From: Leptobacterium flavescens
GTDB lineage: Bacteria > Bacteroidota > Bacteroidia > Flavobacteriales > Flavobacteriaceae
DNA: 64,000 bases
Assembly (NCBI RefSeq): GCF_010671605.1
Contig: NZ_JAABOO010000002.1
Location: forward strand, 558,001 to 622,000
Reading direction: 5' to 3'
Of the stretch, positions 10,762 through 16,584 are shown in pieces. A model generated the notes under the pieces. That model saw only the letters and a list, made by a program, of their open reading frames with translations, was not told the origin of the DNA and ran no database searches. Position numbers and translations under genes: made by a program. Positions within the stretch are counted from its first letter, which is position 1; each line of letters opens with the position of its first letter.

Positions 10762-12252
10762 ATGAGAAACACTCTAGCTATTTTTAGCCTGGCATTACTG
10801 TTGTTTACTTCAACCAATGCACAGGATCGTAAAATACCGATAGACACGACCGTCATCACCAAAAACGTAGTAACCATTAAAGGAAAGCAGATACCCTACA
10901 CTGCAACTACCGGAACTCAGCCCGTTTGGGATGAAAACGGTATGCCCATTGCTACTTTATTTTACACCTATTATCAACGATCTGATATTAAAAACAAGGA
11001 AAAACGTCCTCTTATTATGTCGTTTAACGGGGGACCGGGTTCTGCTTCGGTTTGGATGCACCTGGCCTATACAGGCCCGAAGATCCTGAAGATAGACGAT
11101 GAAGGCTACCCCATTCAGCCTTATGGTGTAAAAGACAATCCGAACTCCATACTGGATGTGGCCGATATTGTTTTTGTAAATCCCGCTAATACCGGATACT
11201 CAAGAACAATCCCTGCCAGTGGTAAGGAAGTGGACCGCTCCAGGTTTTTCGGGATCAATGCCGATATCAAATACCTGGCTGAATGGCTGAATACCTTTGT
11301 AAGCAGGAATAACCGGTGGTTATCGCCAAAATATATCATCGGAGAGAGTTATGGAGGTACCAGAGTAGCCGGACTGGCCCTGGAACTTCAGAACCGACAG
11401 TGGATGTACCTGAACGGAGTAATTATGGTATCTCCCGCAGATTATAAAGTACTAAGAGTTGGAGGCCCTGTTTCATCTGGGATCAACCTCCCCTATTTTG
11501 CAGCTGCAGCCTGGTATCAAAAGGCACTGCCGCCGGAGCTTCAGCAAAAGGATCTCCTGGAAGTTTTACCGGAAGTAGAGCAGTATGCCATCAACACCCT
11601 GATCCCGGCCCTGGCAAAAGGCGGTTTTATCTCCGCAAGTGAAAAACAGCAGGTAGCCAAGAAAATGGCTTATTATTCCGGACTTTCCGAAAAGGTCATC
11701 CTGCAGCATAACCTGGATGTTCCTACCCGTTTTTTCTGGAAAGAACTGTTACGTGACCGTGGCAGGACCATCGGAAGGCTGGATTCCCGTTATCTGGGGA
11801 TCGATAAAATGGATGCCGGAGATTCTCCCGATTACAATTCGGAGATCACTTCCTGGCTGCACTCCTTCACCCCTGCCATAAACTATTATATCAGGGAACA
11901 ACTTAACTTTAAGACCGATATCAAATACAATATGTTCGGGCCCGTACGTCCGTGGGATAACAGCAACGACAATACCAGGGATAACCTGCGTCAGGCCATG
12001 GCACAGAATCCTTATTTGCATGTGATGTACCAGTCCGGTTATTACGACGGTGCTACCACCTATTTTAATGCTAAATACAGTATGTGGCAACTGGATCCGA
12101 GCGGGAAGATGAAAGACAGGCTCAGCTTTAAAGGATACCGAAGCGGACATATGATGTATCTGAGGAATGAAGACCTTATAAATGCCAATCAGGATATCAG
12201 GGAATTTATTTTAAGAACAACACCGGGCAACAAGCCGGCTAAATACGACTAA
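10762..12252 (+). CDS. Secreted S10-family serine carboxypeptidase
   Basis: 496-residue peptidase of family S10, which removes C-terminal residues from peptides. Signal peptide 1-20 (ending TNAQ), so periplasmic or secreted. Seen: the substrate-binding FNGGPGSAS, the nucleophile motif GESYGG (Ser196), an aspartate in the YYDGATTYF block and a histidine in YRSGHMMYL near the C-terminus, giving a complete Ser-Asp-His triad. Length fits the family. It stands alone and is followed by a 12-bp-stem terminator. Confidence 0.93.
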   Translation: MRNTLAIFSLALLLFTSTNAQDRKIPIDTTVITKNVVTIKGKQIPYTATTGTQPVWDENGMPIATLFYTYYQRSDIKNKEKRPLIMSFNGGPGSASVWMHLAYTGPKILKIDDEGYPIQPYGVKDNPNSILDVADIVFVNPANTGYSRTIPASGKEVDRSRFFGINADIKYLAEWLNTFVSRNNRWLSPKYIIGESYGGTRVAGLALELQNRQWMYLNGVIMVSPADYKVLRVGGPVSSGINLPYFAAAAWYQKALPPELQQKDLLEVLPEVEQYAINTLIPALAKGGFISASEKQQVAKKMAYYSGLSEKVILQHNLDVPTRFFWKELLRDRGRTIGRLDSRYLGIDKMDAGDSPDYNSEITSWLHSFTPAINYYIREQLNFKTDIKYNMFGPVRPWDNSNDNTRDNLRQAMAQNPYLHVMYQSGYYDGATTYFNAKYSMWQLDPSGKMKDRLSFKGYRSGHMMYLRNEDLINANQDIREFILRTTPGNKPAKYD

Positions 12253-12388: not shown

Positions 12389-14320
12389 ATGCAGTTTAAA
12401 CATCCGGAAATTCTTTGGGCACTACTACTACTGATCATTCCAATCCTTATTCATCTTTTTCAACTCAGAAGGTTCCAGAAAGTTCCCTTTACCAATGTTC
12501 AGTTCCTCAAGGAAGTGACCATACAAACTCGAAAAAGTTCTCAGCTTAAAAAATGGCTGGTCCTCTGCAGCAGGTTATTGTTATTTGCCGCTGCTGTCCT
12601 GGCTTTTGCCCAACCTTATTTTGCCAACCGGAATATAACCACCACGTCCAGGGAAACGGTTATCTATCTCGATAATTCTTTCAGCATGCAGATGAAAGGC
12701 GAAAAAGGCCCGCTTTTAGAAAGGGCGGTTCAGGAGTTATTGAGCAATATTCCGGATGAAGAGGAAATAACCCTTTTTACCAACGATAATTCCTTTCCGA
12801 AGGGGAGCATAAAAGCTATCAGAAATGAATTGCTGCAGCTTCCGTATTCTCCGGAACAGTTAGATATAAACGAGATCCTCTTAAAAGGACGGAATAGCTT
12901 CAGCAGAGACGGTAACAGCCTTAAGAATCTCCTGGTTATTTCTGATTTTCAGCAAAAGAACGGGAACAGCATTCCCGAAAGGGATTCCCTTATCAATGTA
13001 GAGGTCGTAAAACTATCGCCGGTAAGAACCGATAACATTTCTATAGACAGTATTTATATTTCGCGCACCACTCCATCCAATATAGAGCTGGAAGCCGTTT
13101 TAAGTACACATGGTAACCTTAACGGGGAATATCCTGTTTCTTTCTACAATCAGGATAAACTGATGGCGAAGGTAAGTGCCGATTTTAACGGGAATTCAGG
13201 GAGTGCTAAAGTTAACTTTACCATTCCTTCCAATGAGATCGTGAACGGACGCCTGACGGTAGAAGATGACGGGCTGCAATACGACAATAGCATGTATTTT
13301 AATATCAATGCTACCGAGAAAATAAACGTTATGGCCATTAACGGTACTGACGGAGATTTTCTGAACCGTATCTTTACACAGGACGAGTTCAATCTGGGTT
13401 CGTACGCATCCAATGAGTTAGATTATAGCGCTATAGAACGCCAGAATCTTATTGTTCTGAACGAACTGAAAGATATTCCGAATTCGCTTTCCAATGCCCT
13501 GGATGCCTTTTATAAAAAGGACGGGAAGATCATTCTTATCCCTTCTGCAGACCCTAATTTCTCTGATTATTCCAGATTTATGGGAACATTCGGACTGGGA
13601 GCTTTTACCACCGTAAATACCAATGAAAAAAGAATAACCGGGATACAGTTCTCTCATCCGGTATATCAGGATGTCTTTGATAAGCAGGTAAGTAATTTTC
13701 AGTATCCGAAGGTCTCGATGAGTTTTGACACCAGTGCCAGACTCCCCAGTCTGCTGGATTTTGAAGATGGAAACCCATTTCTGTATGAAAGGAATGGAAT
13801 ATATGTTTTTGCATCGCCCTTAAACAAGGATATATCTAATTTCAAGAACTCCCCTCTTATTGTACCAACCTTTTACAGTATCGGGAAAAAGAGCCTTCAG
13901 CTGGCCGAACTATATTATCTGACAGGAAGAGAGAACCAGGTAGATGTAAAGACTTCCATTCAGCAGGATGCTATTCTCAATATAGAGAACGGTTCTTCTC
14001 AGTTTATTCCGCTTCAACAGTCGTTCCCCGACAAGGTAACGATCACCACTAATGAAAATCCCAGTAAATCCGGGACCTATACGATTAAAAACAACGACAT
14101 CGAATTACAAAATATCAGTTTTAATTATCCGAGAAATGAAAGTAATTTAAGCTATCGTGATATCAGTGATTTTCAGGTTAATGCGATAAACGATTCGGTT
14201 GATGTTTCGCTAAGCCAGTTAAATGATGAGAACAATATTAATGAGCTTTGGAAATGGTTTGTTATTTTTGCACTGATATTCTTACTAGCTGAGATCCTTT
14301 TGCTGAAATATTTAAAATGA
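12389..14320 (+). CDS. BatA-domain membrane protein
   Basis: 643-residue inner-membrane protein. The N-terminal BatA segment is typical (FKHPEILWALLLLIIPILIHLFQLRR, helix about 8-25, then KKWLVLCSRLLLFAAAVLAFAQP, about 55-78). A VWA-like periplasmic or cytoplasmic region follows, starting with IYLDNSFSMQMKG, a DxSxS-like metal site written as DNSFS. A single C-terminal helix (about 620-640) anchors the end. The family is thought to act in envelope or stress functions linked to aerotolerance (Bat) proteins; the precise role is unknown. It heads a four-gene operon with a dihydroorotase-like protein (10 bp gap), a small membrane protein and an esterase. Confidence 0.85.
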   Translation: MQFKHPEILWALLLLIIPILIHLFQLRRFQKVPFTNVQFLKEVTIQTRKSSQLKKWLVLCSRLLLFAAAVLAFAQPYFANRNITTTSRETVIYLDNSFSMQMKGEKGPLLERAVQELLSNIPDEEEITLFTNDNSFPKGSIKAIRNELLQLPYSPEQLDINEILLKGRNSFSRDGNSLKNLLVISDFQQKNGNSIPERDSLINVEVVKLSPVRTDNISIDSIYISRTTPSNIELEAVLSTHGNLNGEYPVSFYNQDKLMAKVSADFNGNSGSAKVNFTIPSNEIVNGRLTVEDDGLQYDNSMYFNINATEKINVMAINGTDGDFLNRIFTQDEFNLGSYASNELDYSAIERQNLIVLNELKDIPNSLSNALDAFYKKDGKIILIPSADPNFSDYSRFMGTFGLGAFTTVNTNEKRITGIQFSHPVYQDVFDKQVSNFQYPKVSMSFDTSARLPSLLDFEDGNPFLYERNGIYVFASPLNKDISNFKNSPLIVPTFYSIGKKSLQLAELYYLTGRENQVDVKTSIQQDAILNIENGSSQFIPLQQSFPDKVTITTNENPSKSGTYTIKNNDIELQNISFNYPRNESNLSYRDISDFQVNAINDSVDVSLSQLNDENNINELWKWFVIFALIFLLAEILLLKYLK

Positions 14321-14330
14321 TAGTATACTA

Positions 14331-15590
14331 ATGAACATCCTAATCAAATCGGCCAGAATAATAGATCCTAAAGATTCTAAATTTCATCAGACGACTCAGG
14401 ATATTTTAATAGAAAACGGATTAATAAAAGAGATAGCTACTGCTATCGAAGCCAAAAAGGACTGGACGATCATTGAAAAAGAGAATCTTCATATTTCACG
14501 CGGATGGTTTGACAGTAGTGTTTCTTTAGGAGAACCGGGGTACGAAGACAGAGAGACCATTGAAAACGGACTCAATGTAGCGGCAAGAAGCGGTTTTACG
14601 GCTGTTGCGGTAAACCCTAACACCCACCCCATCCTCGACACGAATGCCGATATATCTTTTGTAAAATCACGTGCCTTTAACAAGGCGGTAGATCTATATC
14701 CCATTGGGGCATTAACGGTTAAAAGCGAAGGAAAGGACCTGGCAGAGCTATTCGATATGAAAAATGCCGGAGCAATTGCTTTTGGTGACTATCAACGATC
14801 GATCTCCAATCCTAACCTCCTTAAAATTGCCCTTCAGTATGTTCAGAGTTTTGACGGCCTGGTATTTTCCTTTCCACAGGAAGATCAGATCGCCGGAAAA
14901 GGAGTGGTTAACGAGGAAGTAAATGCAACTTTCCTCGGACTCAAGGGTATTCCTGCCCTAGCAGAGGAATTACAGATTGCCCGCGACCTCTTTATCCTTG
15001 AATATACCGGTGGAAAACTACATATCCCCACCATATCAACCGCAAAATCAGTATCTCTCATTCGGGAAGCTAAAGCAAAAGGTTTGGATGTTTCCTGTAG
15101 CGTAGCCATTCACAATCTATTACTGAGCGATAATGTGCTAAAGGAATTCAACACTCACTGTAAAGTACTTCCGCCACTCAGAACTGAAAACGATCTGCAG
15201 GCACTCCGCAAAGGACTTGAGGACGGAACCATAGATATTGTAACTTCCGATCATAATCCTATAGATGTGGAGCGTAAAAATGTAGAGTTTGATTATGCCC
15301 TGGACGGGACTATCGGACTGGAAAGCGCTTTTGGAGCTTTAAACTCGATCGTAGACACTGAGCTTGCAGTTTCCCTTTTGACCGGAGGCCAGGAGAGATT
15401 TGGTATCGCTTCACCCGGAATCGGTGTAGGAGAAAAAGCCAATCTGAGCCTGTTTAACCCGGATATTGAATACGAGTTCTCTGAAGACGATATCTTCTCC
15501 GCTTCTAAAAACTCTGCCTTTTTGGGGCGTCAGCTAAAAGGAAAAGCTTACGGGATCATTGCAAACGATCAGCTGATCTTAAACGACTAA
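14331..15590 (+). CDS. Dihydroorotase-like protein lacking the metal-binding histidines (probable pseudoenzyme)
   Basis: 419-residue protein of the type I dihydroorotase/amidohydrolase family. The fold is recognisable throughout: GWFDSSVSLGEPGYEDRETI, NPNTHPILD, a KVLPPLRT substrate-loop-like block and TSDHNPID. However, the HxH of active enzymes (DxHxHxRxPG) is S63-V-S65 here and the following Arg is Gly67; the second His site around 180-183 reads SFPQED with no His; and the HVxHxST-type site reads HIPTIST, giving Thr234. Asp153 and Asp307 are kept. Catalysis of dihydroorotate formation therefore looks impossible by the known two-zinc mechanism. Similar proteins in flavobacteria are usually labelled dihydroorotase. 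By analogy with the inactive PyrC' of Pseudomonas it could be structural, e.g. supporting aspartate transcarbamoylase. It is second in the BatA operon. Confidence 0.85.
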   Translation: MNILIKSARIIDPKDSKFHQTTQDILIENGLIKEIATAIEAKKDWTIIEKENLHISRGWFDSSVSLGEPGYEDRETIENGLNVAARSGFTAVAVNPNTHPILDTNADISFVKSRAFNKAVDLYPIGALTVKSEGKDLAELFDMKNAGAIAFGDYQRSISNPNLLKIALQYVQSFDGLVFSFPQEDQIAGKGVVNEEVNATFLGLKGIPALAEELQIARDLFILEYTGGKLHIPTISTAKSVSLIREAKAKGLDVSCSVAIHNLLLSDNVLKEFNTHCKVLPPLRTENDLQALRKGLEDGTIDIVTSDHNPIDVERKNVEFDYALDGTIGLESAFGALNSIVDTELAVSLLTGGQERFGIASPGIGVGEKANLSLFNPDIEYEFSEDDIFSASKNSAFLGRQLKGKAYGIIANDQLILND

Positions 15591-15592
15591 TC

Positions 15593-15922
15593 ATGGAAAA
15601 TCTAACTTATAAAGAAGGAAAAACGGCTGCTATTATCAGCTATATTACCATCGTCGGGACTATCATAGCCCTGTTTATGAATATGGAGCCTAAAAACGAG
15701 TTTGCCCGTTTTCATATCCGGCAGGCTTTCGGGATCAATATAGGGTTTTACGCTATCGGAATACTGGTGAGTCAGTTTGATAGCTGGACCATCTCTTCGG
15801 GTTTCTATCTGTTTTTTGTCGTTCTATGGATCTACGGATTTGTAGGGGCAGTACAGCTACGTAAAAACCTTATTCCTATCCTTGGCGAACAATTTCAAAA
15901 ATGGTTTACTTTTATTAAATAA
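15593..15922 (+). CDS. Small DUF4870-like membrane protein
   Basis: 109-residue protein with three hydrophobic segments (about 12-29, 45-62 and 68-92). The pattern NEFARFHIRQAFGIN between the first two helices is like that of the small 'import component' / DUF4870-type membrane proteins, where ARFHxxQAL is typical. Function unknown. Its ATG comes 2 bp after the stop of the dihydroorotase-like gene, and its own stop overlaps the next start by one base (TAATG), so it is translationally coupled on both sides. Confidence 0.75.
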   Translation: MENLTYKEGKTAAIISYITIVGTIIALFMNMEPKNEFARFHIRQAFGINIGFYAIGILVSQFDSWTISSGFYLFFVVLWIYGFVGAVQLRKNLIPILGEQFQKWFTFIK

Positions 15923-16584
15923 TGAATACCAAAGACCTCTCCCTTTATCATATCATCAGAGAACCTCTTCAAGCTAACGAAAAACCACCGGTGCTTTTTA
16001 TGTTTCACGGTTACGGAAGTAATGAAGAAGACCTTTATTCCTTTGCTCCCGAACTTCCCGGATCGCTTTTTGTGATCTCTGTCAGAGCACCTTATCCGTT
16101 GCAACCCTTCGGCCATGCCTGGTATGCAATTCATTTCGATAATACCAACGGGAAATGGAGTGATGATGAGCAGGCAAGATCATCCAGAGATGCCATTGCA
16201 AGTTTTATTGATGAGGCGATAGCAGCTTATGGGCTTGATGCTTCTAATGTAAGTTTGCTCGGATTCAGCCAGGGTACCATACTAAGTCTTGCGGTAGCTC
16301 TCACCTATCCTTCCAAAGTAAAAAATGTCATCGCCTTGAGCGGTTATCTGAATAAAGATATCCTTGGAGAAAATTATAAGGATTCTGATCATTCAGCCAT
16401 CGATATTTATTGCTCACATGGGTCGGTAGACCAGGTGATCCCTGTAGATTGGGCGAGGAATACATCTCCTGCACTAAAAGAACTCGGAATAAAACATATT
16501 TACGAAGAGTATCCGGCAGGTCACGGGGTGATGCCTCAGAATTTCTATGCCTTTAAAAAGTGGCTGGAAGAGCGTCTGGACTAG
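15922..16584 (+). CDS. Alpha/beta-hydrolase, phospholipase/carboxylesterase family
   Basis: 220-residue cytoplasmic esterase of the phospholipase/carboxylesterase family, which hydrolyses short acyl esters. Seen: the oxyanion HGYGSNEEDL block, nucleophile elbow GFSQGT, a catalytic-Asp candidate in CSHGSVDQVIP and the catalytic His in PAGHGVMP near the C-terminus. Length is typical (about 220). Last gene of the BatA operon; it overlaps the preceding gene by one base. The natural substrate is not evident. Confidence 0.9.
   Translation: MNTKDLSLYHIIREPLQANEKPPVLFMFHGYGSNEEDLYSFAPELPGSLFVISVRAPYPLQPFGHAWYAIHFDNTNGKWSDDEQARSSRDAIASFIDEAIAAYGLDASNVSLLGFSQGTILSLAVALTYPSKVKNVIALSGYLNKDILGENYKDSDHSAIDIYCSHGSVDQVIPVDWARNTSPALKELGIKHIYEEYPAGHGVMPQNFYAFKKWLEERLD

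Follow-up and report, generated by a model that had tools for sequence, protein, structure and literature searches.

A dihydroorotase (DHO) homologue that has lost its metal centre raises the question of what it is kept for. The question is posed by the window, that is, the whole stretch of 64,000 nucleotides analyzed here (G000:C2:558001-622000 of the 4.21-Mb genome of Leptobacterium flavescens), in which this homologue, hereafter pDHO, is encoded within an operon (coordinates are those of the window):

12389 to 14320, forward strand: membrane protein of the BatA type, 643 aa, with a Pfam BatA match over residues 1-76; its gene immediately precedes that of pDHO
14331 to 15590, forward strand: pDHO, a predicted non-catalytic homologue of type-I DHOs, 419 aa (open reading frame, homology and predicted fold)
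15593 to 15922, forward strand: small membrane protein, 109 aa, in the same operon as pDHO
15922 to 16584, forward strand: esterase (Abhydrolase_2), 220 aa, in the same operon as pDHO in its own family

The BatA-type gene ends 11 bp before the pDHO gene, that of the small membrane protein begins 3 bp after it, and the esterase start overlaps the stop of the latter, just as the first-pass annotation of this DNA had described the operon. The small membrane protein had zero Pfam or NCBIfam matches. The BatA-type gene is itself preceded, at a distance of 137 bp, by a gene (10762-12252) for a secreted-looking Peptidase_S10 (serine-carboxypeptidase-family) protein.

Metal centre and predicted fold

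Over its full length, pDHO is homologous to type-I DHOs (E 5.2e-58 with Aquifex 3d6n), and its best solved sequence relatives are the Aquifex DHO entries 4bjh and 3d6n. It scored under the NCBIfam cut-off in all 25 listed of 33 families (TIGR00857, 253.9 vs 279.05). Its active-site residues were mapped by alignment to the numbering of Aquifex DHO:

14517 to 14531, forward strand: codons of Ser63, Ser65 and Gly67, which replace Aquifex His61, His63 and Arg65
14790 to 14792, forward strand: codon of Tyr154, which replaces the metal-ligand Asp153 of Aquifex
14871 to 14873, forward strand: codon of Phe181, which replaces the beta-site His180 of Aquifex
15030 to 15032, forward strand: codon of Thr234, which replaces the beta-site His232 of Aquifex
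15249 to 15251, forward strand: codon of Asp307, the equivalent of Aquifex Asp305, kept

Five of the six metal-centre positions are replaced, Asp307 being the sole one kept. The first-pass annotation had read all four histidine ligands as replaced and the Arg after HxH as Gly67, and the alignment agrees with it (Ser63, Ser65, Phe181 and Thr234 for Aquifex His61, His63, His180 and His232; Gly67 for Arg65). It had also listed Asp153 and Asp307 as kept, which holds for Asp307; Asp153 arose from a one-residue misalignment, as around the ligand Asp the Aquifex segment AFTDDGSP aligns with AFGDYQRS of pDHO, where Asp153 corresponds to Aquifex Asp152 and the ligand position is Tyr154. Passages of PMC3880350 state that Aquifex zinc (alpha-site) depends on His61, His63 and Asp153, and that the double mutant His180Ala/His232Ala retains activity. 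Because this double mutant is active, the decisive losses are those of His61, His63, Asp153 and Arg65. Neither the alpha-site triad nor the substrate Arg65 of a catalytic type-I DHO was found in pDHO; judged from its sequence, pDHO is a pseudoenzyme, and the case for its inactivity rests on the lost alpha-site and Arg65.

An AlphaFold2 model of pDHO, built with 32 relatives, had a mean pLDDT of 93.5 and a pTM of 0.92. In Foldseek, it matched 3d6n, the Aquifex DHO bound to aspartate transcarbamoylase (ATCase), with TM 0.94/0.93, the lowest E-value being that of another bacterial DHO; VIA gave Z 55.7 and rmsd 1.8 over 414 residues for 3d6n, tied with 4bjh. The type-I DHO fold is thus complete in pDHO, and the metal centre is absent. 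CRMP/dihydropyrimidinase-related proteins, which are non-catalytic, share a related amidohydrolase fold (Foldseek matches) and are more distant from pDHO; to our knowledge, they have no link to pyrimidine enzymes.

Spread of the loss and selection

The loss was followed in two samples, both including the own genome: an order sample of 60 genomes, with a pDHO match at E<=1e-10 in 55 (54 proteins were examined, a contig-edge fragment from G016 being left out), and a class sample of 149 Bacteroidia genomes, with a match at E<=1e-30 in 128, all examined. The alpha-site was intact in 0 of the 54 order-level relatives and in 1 of the 128 Bacteroidia matches (L213 of G113), so that the first-pass annotation was right to recall the loss in other flavobacterial DHOs, and the loss extends more widely. 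An oddity local to the own genome is ruled out by this class-wide loss, as are chance or sequencing error by alpha-site loss in 54/54 order and 127/128 class matches. Among 20 phylum loci outside the class, from different families, 17 had all seven residues and three did not (L301, L307, L318). In a 104-row DHO tree, the 75 class rows without an intact site (hereafter dead) formed one clade (SH-aLRT 98) beside an intact phylum clade, with the family f78 pair and L318 placed apart from it; the dead rows represent three changes on the best tree by a quick method, and they may share one origin.

Selection on pDHO is strongly purifying, with a median dN/dS of 0.057 (23 finite values of 26 pairs, many with dS near saturation). 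A decaying pseudogene is ruled out by the open frames and by the dN/dS range of 0.027-0.100.

In families f33, f42, f56 and f64 (L218, L219, L220, L225, L226, L231, L237), the dead DHO is so degenerate that it is barely recognizable, Pfam matches being absent for L226 and L237, whereas the native-type PyrB described below remains in f42, f56 and f64 despite this degeneration. The dead DHO of G112 (L490) is split in two overlapping ORFs, which is a frameshift or an assembly error. Among the matches listed in a full-text search, no published dead DHO in Bacteroidota was found by title or abstract opening.

PyrB, the BatA-type neighbour and the second DHO

PyrB of the own genome (C2:864266; 317.7 bits, above cut-off) is encoded about 291 kb from the pDHO gene, and no match for PyrI was obtained in this genome by a search whose control found PyrI in 7 of 14 genomes, including Bacteroides. 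In the class sample, PyrI was above cut-off in 5 of the 149 genomes, and all five belong to a group of 21 in which pDHO gave no match at E<=1e-30 (Fisher p 3.6e-5); a sixth match, in G183, was sub-threshold and broken by stops. A profile search recovered degenerate pDHO in 9 of these 21 genomes: G076, G085, G156, G099 (in pieces), G136, G166, G195, G150 (backed by profile comparison, 97.3%) and G179 (a weak match, E 5e-9). The 12 class genomes left without pDHO comprised five with PyrI, two with unrelated PyrB (G148, G040), four in which PyrB was not found either (G082, G095, G133, G163), and G116 with a native-type PyrB. Close relatives of G116 (G150, G179) carry very degenerate pDHO, and G116 is probably the one exception to the rule that pDHO and native PyrB go together. 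Native PyrB was present in 135 of the 137 DHO-positive class genomes (intact G113 included) versus 1 of the 12 DHO-lacking ones (Fisher 6.7e-14, relatedness ignored), native status being assumed from the family score for the class genomes off a 58-row PyrB tree, which are most of them. The order sample gave the same picture: with 479 bits or more counted as native PyrB, 52/55 genomes with pDHO had it versus 0/5 of those without pDHO, again with relatedness ignored. The pDHO-lacking genomes span ten families (f3, f5, f10, f16, f31, f39, f46, f52, f69, f74).

In the 58-row PyrB tree, the PyrI-type PyrBs, the PyrB of G148 and an extra PyrB of G204 formed one separate group (100/100), the native rows accompany dead or intact DHO, and the PyrB of G040 sat on a 4.05-long branch of unsure placement; the G040 gene precedes carA- and carB-like genes, as read by eye. 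G204 has a native PyrB and pDHO besides its extra PyrI-type PyrB, and in G148, which is listed under the same genus, the foreign type is the only PyrB and pDHO is missing. The PyrI-type PyrB genes of this one genus (L066 in G204, L071 in G148) are without adjacent PyrI.

Outside the class, pyrB adjoins the DHO gene in 7 of the 20 loci, five of them intact (L303, L305, L309, L314, L320) and two dead, the latter being those of family f78, from the same phylum, in which the dead DHO genes (L301, L307) are 3 bp from pyrB. Among class loci with 1.5-4 kb of flank, pyrB lies directly beside DHO only in L213, the intact type-I DHO gene of G113, 70 bp away in a genome where the usual second DHO is absent; in L113, it is 2.7 kb from the dead DHO, on the opposite strand.

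With the DHO fold kept, the metal and substrate residues lost, purifying selection acting, and pDHO inherited with native-type PyrB, we consider that pDHO is probably a non-catalytic scaffold subunit of the organism's own ATCase, similar to Pseudomonas PyrC'/pDHO in class A2. The first-pass annotation had proposed a structural or new role, which these results support; its preference for an envelope rather than a pyrimidine role is not supported by the joint inheritance with native-type PyrB or by the seven pyrB-adjoining loci outside the class. Several observations weigh against the scaffold reading. pDHO is present and PyrB was not found in G041 (88% complete), G046 (99%), G050 (98%), G076 (230 contigs) and G200 (360 contigs), and missing data poorly explain the absence in G046, which is 99% complete in two contigs. 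The own pyrB is distant, and the conserved neighbour of pDHO is the BatA-type gene, not pyrB. Mirror-tree partial correlations (pDHO–PyrB, 0.24, permutation p 0.012; pDHO–BatA, 0.21, p 0.056) did not separate the partners, and, by median distance, pDHO evolves some 3.5-fold faster than PyrB, a high rate for a tight partner.

The link between the BatA-type gene and pDHO is real as gene order: the former immediately precedes the latter, in the same orientation, in 46/54 order, 103/124 class and 79/80 named loci (overlapping samples; the single miss among the named loci is a contig edge), with a median gap of -3 to +6 bp, and is thus no accident of the own genome. The operon is conserved in part, as the BatA-type neighbour is found class-wide, but pDHO has the small membrane protein and the esterase beside it mainly within the own family. 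In control adjacencies, PyrB had an upstream PRTase-domain (PyrR-like) gene in 33/41 cases, and the second DHO discussed below had an upstream glycosyltransferase in 17/30 and DUF4296 in 16/30; the BatA–pDHO adjacency equals the first pair and exceeds the other two, and its strength thus matches that of genes commonly regarded as functional partners. After the dead DHO gene, 119 class and order loci (including L134, L144, L154, L158, L180, L190) had a DUF4199-like membrane gene in 23 cases, DUF4199 being the name that we presume for it, and a family-2 glycosyltransferase in 21. One passage of PMC10722149 places an insertion in PA0401, a "noncatalytic dihydroorotase-like protein" of P. aeruginosa, among the mutants of a membrane-vesicle screen.

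Such gene order could mean that pDHO works with the BatA-type protein in an envelope or membrane task outside pyrimidines, and that its persistence with PyrB reflects shared ancestry. This is consistent with the five genomes above, all of which keep the BatA–pDHO pair without detected PyrB, with the lack of a BatA-type gene beside DHO in the 20 loci outside the class and at the intact G113 locus, and with the distribution of BatA, which tracks pDHO to some extent: among tested class genomes, it was detected in 11 of the 15 carrying pDHO, in part as N-terminal matches only, versus 5 of the 15 lacking it (G113 and genomes outside the class excluded). However, full-length BatA relatives occur without pDHO in G148, G189, G095, G133 and G163, the neighbour is missing at 8/54 and 21/124 pDHO loci (some at contig edges), and native PyrB is found without pDHO in just one genome, G116. 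We regard a purely envelope-related task as unlikely.

pDHO might still be an enzyme, with metal bound by other residues or a metal-free reaction, as its strong purifying selection and the good conservation of Asp307, His308, Lys316 and Gly326 could suggest. In 174 dead proteins, we scored the 80 positions that do not vary among 20 intact proteins and Aquifex; the dead set left out the paralogue L002, the intact L213 and the fragmentary or aberrant L111, L150, L179 and L211. Positions 65, 95 and 309 were included as what we take to be active-site positions. The remainder of the active-site list was drawn from passages of PMC3880350. The 11 active-site positions were kept at 29% on average, versus 75% for the 69 others (Mann-Whitney p 2.7e-4), and a few positions beyond the active-site list were likewise freed. 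The former active-site positions are thus the least kept among the invariants, the residues replacing them vary from family to family, and some orthologues (f56, f64) have lost more still; with these letters varying freely between families, we discarded the idea that another metal or active site has arisen, and we consider retained catalysis highly improbable.

A second DHO, whose presence the first-pass annotation had proposed to check, is encoded in the own genome (L002, C3:430843; NCBIfam PRK09236, 735.5 bits vs a cut-off of 535). This PRK09236-type DHO (compare 2gwn) belongs to the same superfamily and the same genome as pDHO, but is presumed, from its sequence, to be the catalytic DHO. 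At E<=1e-60, a second DHO was found in 140 of the 149 class genomes; of the 128 that had a DHO match, 124 carry it and four lack it (G080, G081, G113 and G143). It was not found within the pDHO loci of about 9 kb, so no common operon was seen. The second DHOs (L002:1495-2829, L245-L274) have Gln at the position of the first HxH histidine (DDQVHFREPG), a feature shared with P. gingivalis 2gwn; in those of PyrI genomes, His is found in L221, L222, L224 and L227, and Gln in G157 (L230). That pDHO regulates or stabilizes this catalytic DHO instead of PyrB might be read from their joint presence and from the highest mirror-tree partial correlation among the pairs tested (0.60 in 39 genomes), but is very improbable, given that 49 genomes favour PyrB (0.44 vs 0.29) and that five PyrI genomes, G148 and G040 have the second DHO and no pDHO.

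Known systems and the role of pDHO

Passages of PMC7053772 define class A1 ATCase as PyrB with an active DHO and class A2 as PyrB with an inactive DHO, and describe the pDHO of P. aeruginosa as inactive yet required for ATCase activity. Similar to the Pseudomonas arrangement, which according to the same passages combines an inactive type-I DHO homologue, a separate active DHO and PyrB, the own genome has a full-length DHO fold with lost zinc ligands, a second DHO, and PyrB without PyrI. Unlike Pseudomonas PyrC', the Bacteroidia pDHO is class-wide and its gene is beside a BatA-type gene rather than pyrB, and its partnership with PyrB is one that we infer. Aquifex DHO–ATCase (class A1; 3d6n, 4bjh) provides, bound to PyrB, the solved fold nearest to that of pDHO, but Aquifex DHO is catalytic with its ligands kept. 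A zinc-ligand-free DHO fold tied to ATCase is also described, in passages of PMC7053772 and PMC4581275, for the fungal Ura2/CAD-like pseudo-DHO, which is a fused domain, whereas pDHO is a free-standing protein.

As a scaffold subunit, pDHO would be needed by PyrB trimers for assembly or stability, probably in a dodecamer of two PyrB trimers and three pDHO dimers by analogy with Aquifex and Pseudomonas, and DHO catalysis would have been handed over to the separate PRK09236-type enzyme (L002). The class ancestor may have had PyrB with an active DHO (A1-like), with the DHO activity then lost and the subunit retained for its structural job. The account needing the fewest assumptions is that the DHO chain held on to its task for PyrB once a second DHO had assumed catalysis, and that lineages acquiring a PyrB independent of pDHO then lost pDHO. 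Both kinds of arrangement seem to occur in the phylum: an A1-like one, with pyrB beside an intact DHO gene, and A2-like ones, of which there are at least two, with the dead gene beside pyrB in f78 and moved beside BatA in Bacteroidia. A bolder version, which we consider rather unlikely, is that the dead DHO is an adaptor tying ATCase to the membrane via the BatA-type protein, so that the first committed pyrimidine step would be placed or regulated at the envelope, and the loss of catalysis and the move from pyrB to the BatA operon would be one change in the class ancestor.

The lineages that carry another, acquired PyrB have no dead DHO and provide a natural control for the scaffold reading. 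The constant BatA-type neighbour points to a specific connection of nucleotide synthesis with the membrane that can be put to the test. If the scaffold reading is right, "dihydroorotase" annotations across most of Bacteroidia would be wrong, and with them the metabolic models and drug-target lists that rely on them; the ATCase of Bacteroidia would be a two-protein enzyme, and pDHO would represent a very large and old case of an enzyme retained as a scaffold after the loss of catalysis.
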